From positions 1 through 31,736 of the IMG/VR virus record IMGVR_UViG_3300048111_000030: 31,736 nucleotides of DNA; one strand, 5' to 3'. Every line of letters starts with the position of its first letter. Position 1 is the first letter of the stretch. The position numbers and the translations under genes are program-made. Of the stretch, positions 22,022 through 29,810 are shown piece after piece. The notes under the pieces were generated by a model. That model saw only the letters and a list, made by a program, of their open reading frames with translations. It was not told where the DNA came from and did no database searches. Origin of the DNA: a virus.

Positions 22022-22423
22022 TTGAGTAGTAAAGAACCTAATGGTGGTCAGCCCGCAAAGCGGGTTGGGCGGCCTAAAAAGAACATGGTATCATCAAAAA
22101 CCAAGGGTAAGCGGAATGCAGTAGGTCGTCCCAAGGGTGATGCTGCGGTTATTAATGAATACAAAGCTAGAATGTTAGCATCTCCTAAGAGTAGGAAGGT
22201 ATTAGATGCTATATTGTCAGCAGCGTTAGATGATGACCATAAGAATCAAGCAGCAGCGTGGAAGTTGTGCATGGATAGGCTATTGCCTGTCAGCTATTTT
22301 GAAAAGGATAAGGCTAGTGGCGGCAAAAGCGCCATTAACATTTCCATTACTGGCGTTGGTGGCGAGACCACTGTCATAAGCGGTAATGAGGAACCCATTG
22401 AAGGGGAATATACAGATGTATAA
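22022..22423 (+). CDS. terS: Terminase small subunit with two AT-hook-like motifs
   Basis: A 133-aa protein starting at TTG, with AGGAG 6 nt upstream and no better start. Two AT-hook-like cores, GRPKK (16-20) and GRPKG (35-39), sit in a basic N-terminal arm. A helical region follows (YKARMLASPKSRKVLDAILSAA, split about residue 60), with a beta C-terminus. Small terminases recognise phage DNA and recruit the large subunit. Position at the head of the packaging operon, two genes before terL, supports the call; the AT-hooks could bind the nearby A+T-rich control region. Confidence 0.72.
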   Translation: MSSKEPNGGQPAKRVGRPKKNMVSSKTKGKRNAVGRPKGDAAVINEYKARMLASPKSRKVLDAILSAALDDDHKNQAAAWKLCMDRLLPVSYFEKDKASGGKSAINISITGVGGETTVISGNEEPIEGEYTDV

Positions 22424-24169: not shown

Positions 24170-26215
24170 ATGGAACTAGAAGGCGCAGACAACTTCACCT
24201 TAGAGCAGGACATTGAAGGTTGGGTAATGGACAAGTGTGATGATTGGCGAGATCATTACGAAGCCAACTACTCCGAAAAATTTGAAGAATACTATCGCCT
24301 ATGGCGTGGTCACTGGTCAGCACAAGACCAGACCCGTCAGTCAGAGCGATCTAAGATTATTTCTCCTGCGCTACAGCAAGCTGTGGAGTCCTCAGTTGCG
24401 GAACTAGAGGAAGCTACGTTTGGTCGTGGTAAGTGGTTTGACATTAAAGATGATGTCAGAGATCAGAACCCTGCCGACATTGCAGCCTTGCGTAGTTATT
24501 TGGAAGAAGACTTTGCAAAGAACAAAGTTCGTAAAAACGTAGCTGAGTGTCTAATTAACGCAGCAGTGTTTGGTACAGGCATTGCAGAAGTTGTTATAGA
24601 AGAAGAAAAAGAAATGGCTCCTGCTTCTCAACCTGTTATGGGTGGTCAGTTACAAGCAGTAGGTGTTACCATCAAGGATCGTACTTGTGTTAAGCTACGT
24701 CCTGTTATGCCACAAAACTTCCTAATTGATCCAGTAGCTACAGACATTGACTCTGCACTAGGTTGTGCTGTAGATGAGTATGTGTCTAGCCACTTGGTTG
24801 AACAACTACAAGAGAAGGGCGTGTATCGTGACGTACCGCTTACAGAAGCAACTAGCGATTTTAACCTAGAGCCTGATCAAGACCTTACTAGCTTTTCAGA
24901 AGACAAGATTAGACTGACTAAATACTATGGTCTTGTTCCTACGCACTTGCTTAAAGAAGCTATGGAAGACAAGGACGCAGAGGAAGAAATAGTAGAGTTT
25001 GAAAGTGAAGAAGAAGAAAGCTACTACACTGAGGCAATGATTGTTATTGCTAATGGTGGTACTTTGCTTAAGGCTGAAAAGAACCCCTACATGATGCAGG
25101 ATCGTCCTGTTGTCTCATTTCCTTGGGATGTCGTTCCTAGCCGCTTTTGGGGCAGAGGAGTATGTGAGAAAGGGTATAACAGTCAAAAGGCGTTAGACGC
25201 AGAACTACGCGCTAGAATTGACGCTCTTGCTCTAACCATCCACCCAATGATGGCTATGGACGCTTCTCGTATGCCTAGAGGCGCTAAACCAAGCATACAG
25301 CCCGGAAAGACCATACTAACTAACGGAAACCCTGCTGAGATTCTACAGCCTTTTAACTTTGGTCAGGTCAACCAGATTACCTTTGCACAAGCGCAATCAC
25401 TACAGACTATGGTACAAACAGCTACAGGTGCTATAGATAGCGCAGGTATTGCAGGTTCTATAAATGGTGAGTCTACTGCCGCTGGTGTCTCTATGTCACT
25501 AGGTGCTATCATTAAGCGCCACAAGCGTACCTTGATTAACTTCCAAGACTCCTTCCTGATTCCCTTCGTACAGAAAGCCGCTTACCGCTACATGCAGTTT
25601 GAACCTGAGCTGTACCCAGTAGCTGACTATAAGTTCCACACTTCTAGTTCTTTGGGCATCATTGCTCGTGAGTATGAAGTTACACAGCTTGTTCAGCTGT
25701 TACAAACTATGTCACCTGATCAGCCTATGTATCCTAAGCTGGTAACGTCTATCATTGATAACATGAACCTGTCTAACCGTGAAGAGTTGATTACTACTTT
25801 GGAACAAGCTAACCAGCCTAATCCAGAAGCACAGCAAGCAGCACAGGCGGCACAGCAAGCACAGTTGCAGTTCCAAGCATCACAAACTGCTGCCCTTAAC
25901 GGACAGGCACAAGAGTCACAAGCTAGAGCGCAGAAGCTGGGAATGGAAGCACAGGCTATTCCGCAGGAGCTTGAGATTGATCGAATTAAAGCGGTTACTA
26001 CTAATCTTAAAGCTGGCGATGCAGACGACAAAGAGTTTCAGAGACGTCTTGAAATCTCTAAGCAGTTGTTGAAGGAGAGAGAAATAGCGGTTAAGGAAGG
26101 CAACGTAGAAGCAACTCCTGAACCGCAAGCACCCGCTATTCCACAGAGAGTGACTCCAAGACCACCAGTTATGCCACAGAGAATGCCTCCGAAACCACCA
26201 CAAGGACTACAGTAA
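24170..26215 (+). CDS. Portal protein
   Basis: A 681-aa protein forming the dodecameric ring through which DNA enters and leaves the capsid. The N-terminal region has WVMDKCDDWRDHYEAN and YRLWRGHWS, then SKIISPALQQAVESSVAE and a DPVATD segment, all typical of podovirus portals of the P22 or related large type. The middle holds the stem-like region. The C-terminal ~130 aa are Gln/Ala-rich and coiled-coil, followed by a Pro-rich tail (residues ~650-681). The gene sits right after terL, as in most tailed phages. Confidence 0.88.
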   Translation: MELEGADNFTLEQDIEGWVMDKCDDWRDHYEANYSEKFEEYYRLWRGHWSAQDQTRQSERSKIISPALQQAVESSVAELEEATFGRGKWFDIKDDVRDQNPADIAALRSYLEEDFAKNKVRKNVAECLINAAVFGTGIAEVVIEEEKEMAPASQPVMGGQLQAVGVTIKDRTCVKLRPVMPQNFLIDPVATDIDSALGCAVDEYVSSHLVEQLQEKGVYRDVPLTEATSDFNLEPDQDLTSFSEDKIRLTKYYGLVPTHLLKEAMEDKDAEEEIVEFESEEEESYYTEAMIVIANGGTLLKAEKNPYMMQDRPVVSFPWDVVPSRFWGRGVCEKGYNSQKALDAELRARIDALALTIHPMMAMDASRMPRGAKPSIQPGKTILTNGNPAEILQPFNFGQVNQITFAQAQSLQTMVQTATGAIDSAGIAGSINGESTAAGVSMSLGAIIKRHKRTLINFQDSFLIPFVQKAAYRYMQFEPELYPVADYKFHTSSSLGIIAREYEVTQLVQLLQTMSPDQPMYPKLVTSIIDNMNLSNREELITTLEQANQPNPEAQQAAQAAQQAQLQFQASQTAALNGQAQESQARAQKLGMEAQAIPQELEIDRIKAVTTNLKAGDADDKEFQRRLEISKQLLKEREIAVKEGNVEATPEPQAPAIPQRVTPRPPVMPQRMPPKPPQGLQ

Positions 26216-26364
26216 TGGTTAGCACACGGGATTTAGAAAACGTGGTAGCTCAGATAAACGTAAAGTTTGAGCAACTAAACAATGAAATTGTACAGCTAAA
26301 GAAACAAATAGCTGATAATACAGGAGCTAAAAATGCCAGTAAAAAAAGACCCAAGACTAGCTAG
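26215..26364 (+). CDS. Small coiled-coil protein, 49 aa
   Basis: Begins MVSTRDLENVVAQINVKFEQ and continues through a heptad-like helix (NNEIVQLKKQIADN) to a basic end KKRPKTS. The ATG overlaps the portal stop by one base and its end overlaps the next gene by 32 nt in another frame. A short oligomerising helix is likely; function unknown. Confidence 0.6.
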   Translation: MVSTRDLENVVAQINVKFEQLNNEIVQLKKQIADNTGAKNASKKRPKTS

Positions 26365-26623
26365 GGCTGGAGTTAGTGGATACAATAAGCCGAAGCGTAC
26401 CCCCAATCACCCAAAGAAAAGCCATGTTGTTGTGGCAAAAGAAGGTGACAAAATTAAGACAATTAGGTTTGGAGAACAGGGGGCAAGCACAGCAGGAAAA
26501 CCCAAAGCGGGTGAATCTGCTCGTATGAAAGCTAAACGTGCAAGTTTTAAAGCACGACATGGTAAGAACATAGCAAAAGGTAAAATGTCAGCAGCTTTTT
26601 GGGCGGATAAAACTAAATGGTAG
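26333..26623 (+). CDS. Basic protein, DUF6321-like, 96 aa
   Basis: A 96-aa Lys/Arg-rich protein with KSHVVVAKEG, KTIRFGEQGAS, FKARHGKNIAKGKMSAAFWA and a terminal KTKW. This order matches a domain I recall as DUF6321, seen in marine phages and in large DNA viruses; the number is from memory. The very high positive charge suggests contact with DNA. ACAGGAGCTAAAA upstream of the ATG gives a good SD. First of a run of tiny basic genes between portal and scaffold. Confidence 0.7.
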   Translation: MPVKKDPRLARAGVSGYNKPKRTPNHPKKSHVVVAKEGDKIKTIRFGEQGASTAGKPKAGESARMKAKRASFKARHGKNIAKGKMSAAFWADKTKW

Positions 26624-26802
26624 TTAACAGATGGTGGAGAATTTGGGCTAAAAGCCTAGGGGAGAAAGTTGGTGAGACAGATAAGCAAGCTGATATTGTT
26701 GCTGGTATTAGGACTTTTTGGTGGTTTACTCATATGGCTACATGTCTCGTTATTATTCTCAATGCAATAGCCAATCATGGTTGGAACTTAATAGGGTTAT
26801 AG
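26617..26802 (+). CDS. Small membrane protein, 61 aa
   Basis: Begins MVVNRWWRIWAKSLGEKVGE, amphipathic and Trp-rich, followed by one hydrophobic helix (WWFTHMATCLVIILNAIA, about residues 35-52). It overlaps the preceding gene end by 7 nt. One transmembrane span in the late operon makes it a candidate holin or pinholin for the M15 endolysin, but no holin family signature is visible, so this is only a suggestion. Confidence 0.65.
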   Translation: MVVNRWWRIWAKSLGEKVGETDKQADIVAGIRTFWWFTHMATCLVIILNAIANHGWNLIGL

Positions 26803-26811
26803 GAGAAGATT

Positions 26812-26910
26812 ATGCCATACGGTAAAGGTACATACGGTAGTAAAGTAGGTCGTCCACCTAAGAAGAAAAAGACAGCACCTAAGAAGAAGCCAGTTAAAAA
26901 AGGTAAGTAA
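26812..26910 (+). CDS. Tiny AT-hook peptide, 32 aa
   Basis: Begins MPYGKGTYGSKVGRPPKKKK. A GRPPKK AT-hook-like core is followed by a lysine/proline tail, with about 14 basic residues of 32. A strong SD (TAGGAGA) sits 6 nt upstream. Two bases separate it from the next gene. The sequence looks designed to bind the DNA minor groove; I recall similar peptides in marine phages but cannot name a family. Confidence 0.7.
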   Translation: MPYGKGTYGSKVGRPPKKKKTAPKKKPVKKGK

Positions 26911-26911
26911 T

Positions 26912-27091
26912 ATGCCAGCCAAGAAGTCTACAGTAAACAAAGCAGGGAACTATACTAAGCCCACTATGCGTAAGAACTTGTTTAATAAGATCAAAGCAGG
27001 TACTAAAGGTGGTAACGCTGGTCAATGGTCTGCTAGGAAAGCTCAGATGTTAGCCAAGGAGTACAAGGCAAAAGGTGGAGGCTATAAATAA
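26912..27091 (+). CDS. Small basic protein, 59 aa
   Basis: Begins MPAKKSTVNKAGNYTKPTMR. The core GNYTKPxMRKxLF, KAGTKGGNAGQWSARKAQ and the end KGGGYK match a domain I associate with DUF5872-type proteins of viruses; the number is recalled, not checked. It is basic and helical with no cysteines. The TAA overlaps the next ATG by one base, so the two are co-translated. In some larger viral proteins I recall this segment and the one encoded next as a single chain; here they are split. Confidence 0.7.
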   Translation: MPAKKSTVNKAGNYTKPTMRKNLFNKIKAGTKGGNAGQWSARKAQMLAKEYKAKGGGYK

Positions 27092-27333
27092 TGGCACTAA
27101 AAGAATCACAGAAGAGCCTAAAGAAGTGGACTAAGCAGAAGTGGCGTACACCCTCTGGCAAGCCTAGCGGCAAGACTGGAGAGGTCTACGCACCTTCTAA
27201 GACCATTAGTAAGCTAAAGTCTACAGCAGCAGGTAAAAAGAAACTAGCGGCTGCTAACAAAAAGAAAAAGGAAGCCACTGCTAAGGGCAAGCAACATGCT
27301 AAACATGGGCTACACAAGGGCAAGAAACGATGA
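27091..27333 (+). CDS. Very basic protein, 80 aa
   Basis: Begins MALKESQKSLKKWTKQKWRT, then PSGKPSGKTGEVYAPSK, and ends in a Lys/Ala-rich histone-tail-like half (KKKLAAANKKKKEATAKGKQ). More than a third of residues are Lys, Arg or His. The SLKKWTKQKWRTPSGKPS pattern recalls the second half of DUF5872-like proteins. Likely DNA- or scaffold-binding in the capsid; inferred from charge and position only. Confidence 0.7.
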   Translation: MALKESQKSLKKWTKQKWRTPSGKPSGKTGEVYAPSKTISKLKSTAAGKKKLAAANKKKKEATAKGKQHAKHGLHKGKKR

Positions 27334-27455
27334 AAGGTCAAACACATGGAGGCAAAGGAAGCAGTCAGCGTAAGACGGACTCTGCTAAGTTTGCCAGTAA
27401 CTGGGATGCCATCTACAACAAACAAGCACAGAAGTCAAGTAAAAAGAAGAAATAA
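27330..27455 (+). CDS. Small basic protein, 41 aa
   Basis: Begins MKGQTHGGKGSSQRKTDSAK, then FASNWDAIYNKQ and a KSSKKKK end. The GGKGSxxRxxDxxKFxxNWDxI pattern resembles a short protein I recall from T7-like and other podoviruses, function unknown. The ATG overlaps the preceding stop region by 4 bases. Last of the basic cassette, directly before an internal promoter. Confidence 0.7.
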   Translation: MKGQTHGGKGSSQRKTDSAKFASNWDAIYNKQAQKSSKKKK

Positions 27456-27458
27456 CGC

Positions 27459-27487
27459 TTGACTTTTTTATGCTTTTATGTTATACT
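27459..27487 (+). promoter_or_regulatory. Internal sigma70 promoter for the scaffold/capsid genes
   Basis: TTGACT (27459-27464), a 17-bp spacer, TATACT (27482-27487) with an extended -10 TG at 27479-27480. Each hexamer has one mismatch. It lies in the 80-bp gap after the basic cassette and 48 bp before the next start, and would boost scaffold and capsid expression. Confidence 0.75.
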
Positions 27488-27535
27488 AAGAAGGTATATT
27501 GCTATTAACTTAACTGTCCTTATAGGAGAAACAGT

Positions 27536-27781
27536 TTGATTGACCCTAAACTAGAACTATATTACCGTAACATGAGAGAGATGTTTCGTTCAGAAGGTTG
27601 GAAACAGTTGTTAGAAGACCTTAACTCAAACGCGGTAATAATTAACTCAGTAGAAGTAACTAAAGACTTAGAAGACCTGCACTTCCGTAAAGGCCAACTC
27701 TCAGTCATAGCGAACATACTAAATTTAGAAGCTCAGATTGACACAGCAGAGCAACAACAACTAGAAGACGCAAAAGAATAA
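27536..27781 (+). CDS. Small acidic helical protein, 81 aa
   Basis: Starts at TTG with AGGAGA 8 nt upstream. The sequence has YYRNMREMFRSEGWKQLLEDL, split by a hydrophobic segment, then LHFRKGQLSVIANILNLEAQ. This pattern resembles a small head-module protein found before scaffold genes in podoviruses; no function is established. The stop overlaps the next ATG by one base. Confidence 0.68.
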   Translation: MIDPKLELYYRNMREMFRSEGWKQLLEDLNSNAVIINSVEVTKDLEDLHFRKGQLSVIANILNLEAQIDTAEQQQLEDAKE

Positions 27782-28064: not shown

Positions 28065-28847
28065 ATGGCAACACTAATAGACGAGCGTCTACCTGAAGAC
28101 GAAGACAACGAACAAGAAGCAAGTCAACTGACTGAGGAACCTGTAGAGCAGGAAACTCCACAAGAAGATGACATCCCTGAGAAGTACAAAGGAAAGTCAA
28201 CCGCTGAGATTGTAAGGATGCACCAAGAAGCTGAGAAGCTTTTAGGAAAGCAAAGCGGAGAAGTAGGGGAGTTGCGATCCGTTGTTGACAACTACATACA
28301 GACACAACTCGACACAACACAACAAGCAACCCAAGAACCTGAAGAAGATATAGACTTTTTCTCTGATCCCGACAAGGCTGTCGAAAGAGCGATTAAGAAT
28401 CATCCTTCAATCAAAGCTGCTGAAGCACAAACACAGCAGTACAAACAACAGACAGCGCAATCTCAATTGCAAAAACGTCATCCTGACATGCAACAGATTC
28501 TGCAAGATAGTAAGTTTGTTGATTGGATTAAAGGATCAAAGATTCGTACTCAGCTTTTTGCACAAGCGGATACACAGTATGACTATGAAGCTGCTGATGA
28601 ACTTTTCACTAACTGGAAGGAACGTCAAGGCACAGTGGCTCAGACTGTAGCTAACGAGAAAGCAAGTAGGAAAAAAGCTGTTAAGACTGCCTCAACAGGT
28701 GGTGCAAAAGGAAGTGGTGAAGCAGCAACTCGCAAAGTCTATAGACGCTCAGACATTATTAAACTAATGCAGACCGACCCTGAAAGATATTTATCCTTGT
28801 CTGATGAAATCATGCAAGCGTATCAAGAGGGGAGAGTCCGAAACTAA
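28065..28847 (+). CDS. Scaffolding (capsid assembly) protein
   Basis: A 260-aa protein, strongly acidic and disordered at the N-terminus (many E, D, Q), with helical Gln/Ala-rich middle segments and a basic C-terminal part (KASRKKAVKT and TRKVYRRSD). This charge layout, with a C-terminal basic helix that binds the coat protein, is typical of P22/T7-type scaffolds. It lies directly before the major capsid gene. GGAG lies about 9 nt upstream of the ATG. The preceding 53-nt gap shows no hairpin. Confidence 0.8.
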   Translation: MATLIDERLPEDEDNEQEASQLTEEPVEQETPQEDDIPEKYKGKSTAEIVRMHQEAEKLLGKQSGEVGELRSVVDNYIQTQLDTTQQATQEPEEDIDFFSDPDKAVERAIKNHPSIKAAEAQTQQYKQQTAQSQLQKRHPDMQQILQDSKFVDWIKGSKIRTQLFAQADTQYDYEAADELFTNWKERQGTVAQTVANEKASRKKAVKTASTGGAKGSGEAATRKVYRRSDIIKLMQTDPERYLSLSDEIMQAYQEGRVRN

Positions 28848-28868: not shown

Positions 28869-29810
28869 ATGGCTACATCAGTATATCCCGCAATGGGCGG
28901 AGCAGTAGACAACACTAGCGCAGCTACTTTTATCCCAGAAATCTGGAGTGACGAAGTAATTGCTGCATACAAGAGCAATCTTGTAATGGCTAACCTCGTT
29001 AAGAAAATGAGCATGACTGGTAAGAAAGGTGACACCATTCACGTTCCTAAGCCTACTCGTGGTTCAGCTAACGCTAAAGTTGCAGAGACTGCTGTAACTA
29101 TCCAGAACTCTGTTGAGTCAGAAGTTCTGATTAACATCAACAAGCACTTTGAGTTCTCTCGTTTGATCGAAGACATTACCGAAGTACAGGCTCTCGCTTC
29201 ACTGCGTCAGTTCTATACTGGTGATGCAGGTTATGGTCTGGCTAAGCAGGTTGACAACGATCTGTTTGCACTGGCTAAGTCTTTCGGTGATGGCGATGGT
29301 TCTAGCTACGTTAACTCTGGTTCTTTCCAAATTAACACTACCTCTGGTGCTTTGGAAGCATTTGACGCTGATGGTGCTGCTGACGTTGGTGACTTCTCTG
29401 ACGCTGCGTTCCGTGCGCTGATTCAGAAGCAAGACGATGCAGATGTTCCTATGGACAACCGTAGCTTCATTGTTCCTCCTTCACTGCGTAACGCTATCAT
29501 GGGTATTGATCGCTACACTTCTACTGACTTTGTTAATGGCAAAGGCGTAGAGACTGGCAAGATTGGTAACCTATACGGTGTTGACGTATATGTATCTACT
29601 AACGTACCTGTTATCGACACTACTGGTGGTGCTTCCATCCGTGGCGCACAGCTGATCCACAAGGACACTAATGTTCTTGCAGAGCAGCAGGCTATTCGTT
29701 CACAGACTCAGTACAAGCAGGAGTTCTTAGGTACTCTTTACACTGCTGATTGTTTGTATGGCGTTCAAGTCATGCGTCCAGAAGCAGGCTTCACCTTAGC
29801 TGTTAAGTAA
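28869..29810 (+). CDS. Major capsid protein
   Basis: A 313-aa coat protein, likely HK97 fold. The N-terminus (FIPEIWSDEVIAAYKSN) with LVKKMSM and GDTIHVPKPTRG is the familiar start of phage capsid proteins of this group; DNDLFALAKSFGDG and the C-terminal RSQTQYKQEFLGTLYTADCLYG follow. Codon use is more GC-rich and uniform (ctg, cgt, aac) than in neighbours, which fits high expression. AGGAAG lies 8 nt upstream. A strong terminator follows directly. Confidence 0.9.
   Translation: MATSVYPAMGGAVDNTSAATFIPEIWSDEVIAAYKSNLVMANLVKKMSMTGKKGDTIHVPKPTRGSANAKVAETAVTIQNSVESEVLININKHFEFSRLIEDITEVQALASLRQFYTGDAGYGLAKQVDNDLFALAKSFGDGDGSSYVNSGSFQINTTSGALEAFDADGAADVGDFSDAAFRALIQKQDDADVPMDNRSFIVPPSLRNAIMGIDRYTSTDFVNGKGVETGKIGNLYGVDVYVSTNVPVIDTTGGASIRGAQLIHKDTNVLAEQQAIRSQTQYKQEFLGTLYTADCLYGVQVMRPEAGFTLAVK

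Follow-up and report, generated by a model that had tools for sequence, protein, structure and literature searches.

A recurrent pair of Tlr6F- and DUF5872-type genes within a cassette for small basic proteins between the portal and scaffold genes of a marine phage

Genes for two small proteins, one of Tlr6F/DUF5754 type and the other of DUF5872 type, recur together as a pair in viral genomes. In the stretch of DNA analysed here (the window: an entire virus record of 31.7 kb, of the marine HMO-2011-like phage type) the pair lies in a tight cassette of mostly very basic ORFs between portal and scaffold, and its DUF5872-type member is divided between two adjacent ORFs, as it is in many marine phages. 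We infer, with somewhat better than even confidence, a head-interior role: that the cassette comprises late genes for small basic proteins which enter the procapsid and remain in the head alongside the packaged DNA. Such a placement would provide a first testable function for two poorly understood families that phages share with giant viruses.

The cassette and its neighbours

The minus strand of the window encodes DNA polymerase and ribonucleotide reductase, and the plus strand TerL, portal, scaffold and coat. The cassette and the features that flank it are as follows.

24170-26215, plus strand: portal protein (phrog_1216, 8.7e-54), upstream neighbour of the cassette
26215-26364, plus strand: coiled-coil-like ORF of 49 aa that opens the cassette
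26333-26623, plus strand: 96-aa protein of Tlr6F/DUF5754 type (phrog_7595, 2.6e-43)
26617-26802, plus strand: 61-aa membrane-protein-like ORF (phrog_1679), optional in the cassette
26812-26910, plus strand: 32-aa AT-hook-like peptide (GRPPKKKK)
26912-27091, plus strand: 59-aa N-half of a DUF5872-type protein (phrog_17747)
27091-27333, plus strand: 80-aa C-half of a DUF5872-type protein (phrog_14910), with a 1-bp stop/start overlap with the N-half
27330-27455, plus strand: 41-aa basic ORF with a GGKGS...NWDAIYNK motif
27459-27487, plus strand: sigma-70-like promoter element (TTGACT-17-TATACT, the -10 box being preceded by TG), immediately downstream of the cassette and upstream of g81, g76, scaffold and coat
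28065-28847, plus strand: head scaffolding protein (phrog_13678, 6.8e-12; phrog_19777, head scaffolding, 1.1e-4), downstream neighbour of the cassette
28869-29810, plus strand: major capsid protein (phrog_267, 4.1e-51; Phage_capsid_2)

The six ORFs from the 96-aa to the 41-aa one had been picked out in an initial annotation of the sequence as a tight cassette between portal and scaffold, and they are so arranged, overlapping by 1-7 bp or separated by 1-9 bp; missing from that annotation were the promoter-like element at the end of the cassette and the 49-aa ORF, which overlaps the 96-aa ORF by 32 bp. Five of the six had been described as strongly basic, and this too is borne out: in a ranking by charge per residue of all ATG-initiated ORFs of 25-120 aa, of which the six frames of the window contain 134, all five fall within the top six (net positive charge per residue +0.41 for the 32-aa, +0.29 for the 80-aa, +0.24 for the 59-aa, +0.22 for the 41-aa and +0.21 for the 96-aa ORF). 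By contrast, scaffold (net -14), portal (net -34), coat and TerL are acidic. The 61-aa ORF, singled out as the exception, is indeed membrane-protein-like; L007 and L008 do without it.

The cassette ORFs are real genes. Conservation, to which the initial annotation had tied their reality, is wide, and a codon comparison (pN versus pS) against relatives L007, L008, L009, L015, L017 and L027 gives pN far below pS, with purifying selection on six of the seven ORFs; the 61-aa ORF, outside the comparison set, matches a PHROG family. The value of w is 0-0.04 for the 59-aa ORF, 0.03-0.04 for the 80-aa ORF (against L007 and L008), about 0.1 for the 96-aa ORF, 0.12-0.19 for the 32-aa ORF and 0.15-0.18 for the 49-aa ORF, which has homologues in L007 and L008; for the 41-aa ORF pN is 0.13 against a pS above 0.8. 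The 59-aa protein is 93-96% identical to those of relatives whose coat proteins are only 66-76% identical. These substitution patterns, together with the wide conservation, rule out chance ORFs. At least several hundred IMG/VR contigs were retrieved per query, which makes the module a common one in environmental viruses.

Two of the smallest ORFs are recognisable by short motifs. The 41-aa ORF has homologues in L007, L008, L020, L022, L023 and L032, in the last four of which its GGKGS...NWDAI(Y/F)NK motif is found in ORFs of 56-65 aa beside Tlr6F/DUF5872; the homologues tested had no PHROG match. The AT-hook-like core of the 32-aa ORF (GRPPKKKK) has its GRP kept in 11 of 12 sequences of the family, and takes the form RGRP or KGRP in L041 and L081. 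Like AT-hook peptides, this ORF has a GRP core followed by lysines; unlike them it has a single core in only 32 aa. Two AT-hook-like cores, GRPKK and GRPKG, are also present in a basic ORF upstream of TerL (22022-22423), a possible small terminase.

The promoter-like element at 27459-27487 has a counterpart in each of the five relatives examined (L007, L008, L009, L017, L027), and because of this we think that the TerL-portal transcription unit probably ends with the cassette, scaffold and coat starting a new one; promoter-like matches as a class are no commoner than chance in the cassette region. Just beyond it, around the ribosome-binding site of an 81-aa ORF, a palindrome-like stretch at 27515-27538, CTGTCC..TA..GGAGAAACAGT, recurs in L007, L008, L009 and L027 and may be a translation-control hairpin.

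The Tlr6F-type protein and its DUF5872-type partner

Family membership had to be established by way of relatives, because the window ORFs could not be assigned to Pfam families directly at the cutoffs: profile searches gave PHROG matches for the 96-, 61-, 59- and 80-aa ORFs, while the 96-, 59- and 80-aa ORFs stayed below the Pfam cutoffs. Against DUF5754 (PF19058) the 96-aa ORF scores 15.0 bits (E 0.026; gathering cutoff 27.4 bits). A profile made from its relatives finds NCTB_177 at 53.5 bits over profile positions 13-95, and NCTB_177 in turn passes the DUF5754 cutoff, at 43.8 against 27.4 bits. The ORF has in common with Tlr6F/DUF5754 the motifs vlaKegdkvklirFG ... sfkaRH ... k.saaYWa.k.kW, but unlike the Pfam members it scores under the model cutoff and so belongs to a divergent phage branch; the case is strong for regarding it as a divergent homologue of Tlr6F/DUF5754 type rather than as a member of the Pfam model. 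Its structure model (pLDDT 84) has a predicted beta-hairpin and two helices, and a Foldseek search against viral models returned matches at probabilities of 0.99-1.00: ICP1 ORF125, an uncultured-phage XkdF protease, the CL131 1393-aa portal and a ChaB protein at 1.00, and the Tunisvirus protein V9SE36 at 0.99. Structure searches of the PDB gave no significant match for either this fold or that of the fused DUF5872-type protein, and a PDB sequence search gave nothing relevant. Tlr6F, for which no function is known, is a conserved protein of almost every polinton-like virus and is also present in several virophages, many giant viruses and some phages (PMC4642659).

These giant-virus relatives of the 96-aa ORF had been overlooked at first; the likeness to large DNA viruses was instead attributed to two of the ORFs as halves of a single domain, and for the 59- and 80-aa ORFs it holds. 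Against a profile built solely from fused phage DUF5872-type proteins the 59-aa ORF scores 63.8 bits (positions 2-48) and the 80-aa ORF 39.5 bits (positions 53-120), compared with 10.0 and 8.7 bits for the best of 500 shuffled versions of each. Fused versions do occur elsewhere, as had been suspected: in loci found in IMG/VR with the relative from Synechococcus phage S-EIV1 as query, a single ORF of 131-133 aa spans both parts, and 66 of the best 80 such loci have the fused chain. The 59-aa ORF is 71% identical to the fused protein of L165. The fused phage relatives score 21.8-27.2 bits against DUF5872 (PF19197); matches of 24.9-27.2 bits, just under the cutoff of 27.5, extend over almost the full profile, the best of them covering positions 3-112 of 116 (27.2 bits, E 6.3e-6); the window halves alone had no match to Pfam DUF5872. 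Whereas DUF5872 is one chain of about 116-130 aa across the whole profile, the window has two ORFs that align to consecutive parts of the fused phage proteins; together the two ORFs make up a divergent DUF5872 homologue, the 59-aa ORF its N-half and the 80-aa ORF its C-half.

The two halves are inherited together. In IMG/VR the C-half is present in all 80 of the best 80 N-half loci and the N-half in 79 of the best 80 C-half loci, the one exception having only 301 bases upstream, and N always lies upstream of C. The split falls directly after a GGGY motif. Of 84 loci, 50 have halves that abut, overlap or are at most 5 bp apart, 39 of these overlapping by one base; in the remaining 34 they are separated by 93-1762 bp, and in HMO-2011 a methanesulfonate monooxygenase gene stands between them. 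Each half also occurs fused to other sequences; in L028, for example, the 80-aa domain opens a protein of 454 aa that matches tape-measure families in its C-terminal part. S-EIV1 (L005:3956-4697) has a different split point, the N-half and the start of the C-half forming one ORF and the rest of the C-half lying two genes on, with an unrelated gene between the pieces.

A natural fused DUF5872-type protein is modelled as helical, with a mean pLDDT of 92.9. The histone-tail-like end noted in the initial annotation proves to be a resemblance of composition: alignment places this basic stretch in the C-half of the fused protein, which is predicted to be helical (block-mean pLDDT 89-95, the model being of the fused protein), and a histone H1-like disordered tail was rejected on this ground. 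FANC_SAP matches the DUF5872 N-half weakly (E 0.05-0.08), a hint of a SAP domain on which no conclusion here is based.

Tlr6F and DUF5872 genes form a recurrent pair. Among the best 80 IMG/VR loci for each query, Tlr6F was present within the fetched flank of 56 N-half, 60 fused and 71 C-half loci; reciprocally, DUF5872 was near 10 of 17, 38 of 80 and 41 of 79 Tlr6F-anchored loci, sets less biased toward pairing than the DUF5872-anchored ones. Since such best-80 counts draw on close relatives and many near-duplicate contigs, Tlr6F domains were clustered at 70% identity, a correction that applies to Tlr6F only: 15 of 20 clusters hold a locus with both genes. In the first four scans all 164 co-occurrences had the two on the same strand, in several gene orders, and four arrangements are seen, with Tlr6F before or after and DUF5872 fused or split. 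The pair is found in a cultured phage, S-CRES1, where fused DUF5872 (gp97) adjoins Tlr6F (gp98), and the haptophyte virus CpV-BQ1 has both DUF5872 and DUF5754 proteins (PMC12085832). A literature search, incomplete in its coverage, found no paper describing the pairing, the split or the Tlr6F fusions. In cyanophage P-HS2 a third small DUF family is present in the head region: gp45 (L432:3550-3819), a DUF5824 protein (27.1 bits, cutoff 25), is encoded by the second gene ahead of Tlr6F and the third ahead of the scaffold homologue.

Fusions, gene order and virion data

In ICP1 the gene for gp125, a predicted scaffold-degrading protease (PMC9040626), lies between those for portal (gp127/gp126) and scaffold (gp124), and its product consists of Peptidase_S78_2 (37-160) followed by a Tlr6F-type domain (182-261). 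This capsid protease (Peptidase_S78_2/XkdF) has both the domain and the portal-scaffold slot of the 96-aa ORF, which differs from it in being the Tlr6F part only, without the protease. Aeromonas phage PAc 0055 has the opposite order, a Tlr6F-type domain (73-150) and then Peptidase_S78_2 (176-287). In CL131 the fusion is to the portal: gp012 (L087:1399-5580) is a polyprotein of Phage_portal_3, a Tlr6F-type domain (535-604), InPase (inorganic pyrophosphatase) and Phage_Mu_F, and the portal ORF012 is one of 23 proteins found by LC-MS/MS of purified CL131 virions, where it is the portal that is named, not peptides of the Tlr6F part (PMC6293099). These fusions to prohead protease and portal-MuF, with the DUF5872 pairing, place the Tlr6F family in head assembly, and its function can be tested in cultured phages.

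Gene order is consistent with this placement. The Tlr6F gene follows portal and precedes scaffold in the window and in L007, L008, L017 and L027, and in cyanophages S-H1 and P-HS2 a stand-alone Tlr6F gene immediately precedes scaffold and coat. The portal-scaffold slot is not a general rule: the DUF5872 pair lies between TerL and portal in L017 and L021, and in HMO-2011-type phages it is found close to genes for lysis or terminase. The literature searched yielded no virion proteomics of stand-alone homologues, including those of HMO-2011-type phages, and the idea of the initial annotation that the cassette proteins act within the particle is supported indirectly, by the portal-MuF and prohead protease fusions, by mass spectrometry of one of these and by synteny.

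A head-interior role and its alternatives

We favour the head interior because of the Tlr6F fusions, to which the structure search led independently, the LC-MS/MS data on CL131 virions, synteny, the joining of the 80-aa domain to a tape-measure-like part in L028, the co-inheritance of the DUF5872 halves, the Tlr6F-DUF5872 pairing, the basic charge and the AT-hook-like core. As the procapsid forms around portal and scaffold the small basic proteins would be drawn into it, the 96-aa domain being held there by contacts with partners that the fusions make covalent, and the two DUF5872 halves would associate into one functional unit. Their positive charge, +9 to +23 per protein, would bind or screen the packaged DNA, to which the AT-hook-like peptide might add minor-groove binding; the proteins would then remain in the head with the DNA and possibly leave with it at ejection. 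The internal proteins of T4, of about 8, 10 and 20 kDa, are basic, bind DNA at low salt and are built into the prohead core (PMC9026906), staying with the DNA in the head thereafter (PMC9026906, PMC7697877). The cassette proteins resemble T4 IPI-IPIII in being small and basic and in being encoded by several genes together with head genes, and a comparable head-interior role is what we propose for them. T4 internal proteins, however, are targeted by an N-terminal peptide, which proteolysis then removes; no shared N-terminal peptide was seen by eye here, and the scan of window ORFs turned up no recognisable prohead protease. The lack of a recognised protease weighs against the head interior, as do other observations: neither fold has a significant match in the PDB; in many relatives the genes occupy other places in the late region, close to those for lysis or terminase; the InPase inserted in the CL131 MuF polyprotein implies that an insert there may be cargo rather than a DNA binder; and the cassette, lying on the TerL-portal side of the promoter-like element, may be expressed at a lower level than scaffold and coat.

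The main rival to a head-interior role is a pure part in procapsid assembly or maturation, in which the Tlr6F-type protein would be an adaptor or targeting domain that ties in protease, portal or scaffold, the charge would make contact with the acidic scaffold and portal, and the proteins would exit before or during packaging. The fusion partners are themselves assembly proteins, the gene directly precedes scaffold in unrelated phages, and scaffold and portal do have the net negative charge that such contacts call for; we nevertheless rate it as rather unlikely, since it leaves the AT-hook-like peptide unexplained. To our knowledge, the capsids of polinton-like and giant viruses have neither a portal nor an HK97-type scaffold, and an assembly role leaves the presence of the family in those viruses equally without explanation. 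The pairing and the split suggest a particle-interior module common to viruses with unrelated capsids. In its fullest form, a conserved DNA-organising module of Tlr6F and DUF5872 common to the particles of tailed phages and of giant and polinton-like viruses, with a DUF5872 partner that in many marine phages is a split protein reassembled from two co-inherited genes, the proposal is a tentative one, which we hold to be possible while stopping short of calling it probable.

Very unlikely, in our estimate, is that the cassette serves host takeover, its products being small proteins that bind DNA and, once synthesised or injected, target the nucleoid or the defences of the host, with their late-gene position incidental. 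An AT-hook-like core and high charge would suit such proteins, the gene order is fluid, with some copies far from head genes, and one of the internal proteins of T4 is an anti-restriction factor that is injected (PMC9026906). The repeated fusions to prohead protease and to portal-MuF argue the other way. So does the conservation of the 59-aa protein, which is very strong, and such conservation is unusual for host-takeover genes. A further alternative concerns the DUF5872 pieces only and is compatible with any of these roles: they may be independent proteins of one ancestor that no longer cooperate. Their separation by 93-1762 bp in 34 of 84 loci and the fusion of each to other sequences would fit independence, which is distinctly unlikely given their co-occurrence in 80 of 80 and 79 of 80 of the best loci, with N always upstream.

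At the far end of the window, the ORF at 459-1547 encodes a tail fibre protein that resembles collagen (Pfam Collagen, 3.2e-17) and has long repeats of DTTDTV and GQQGEQ.
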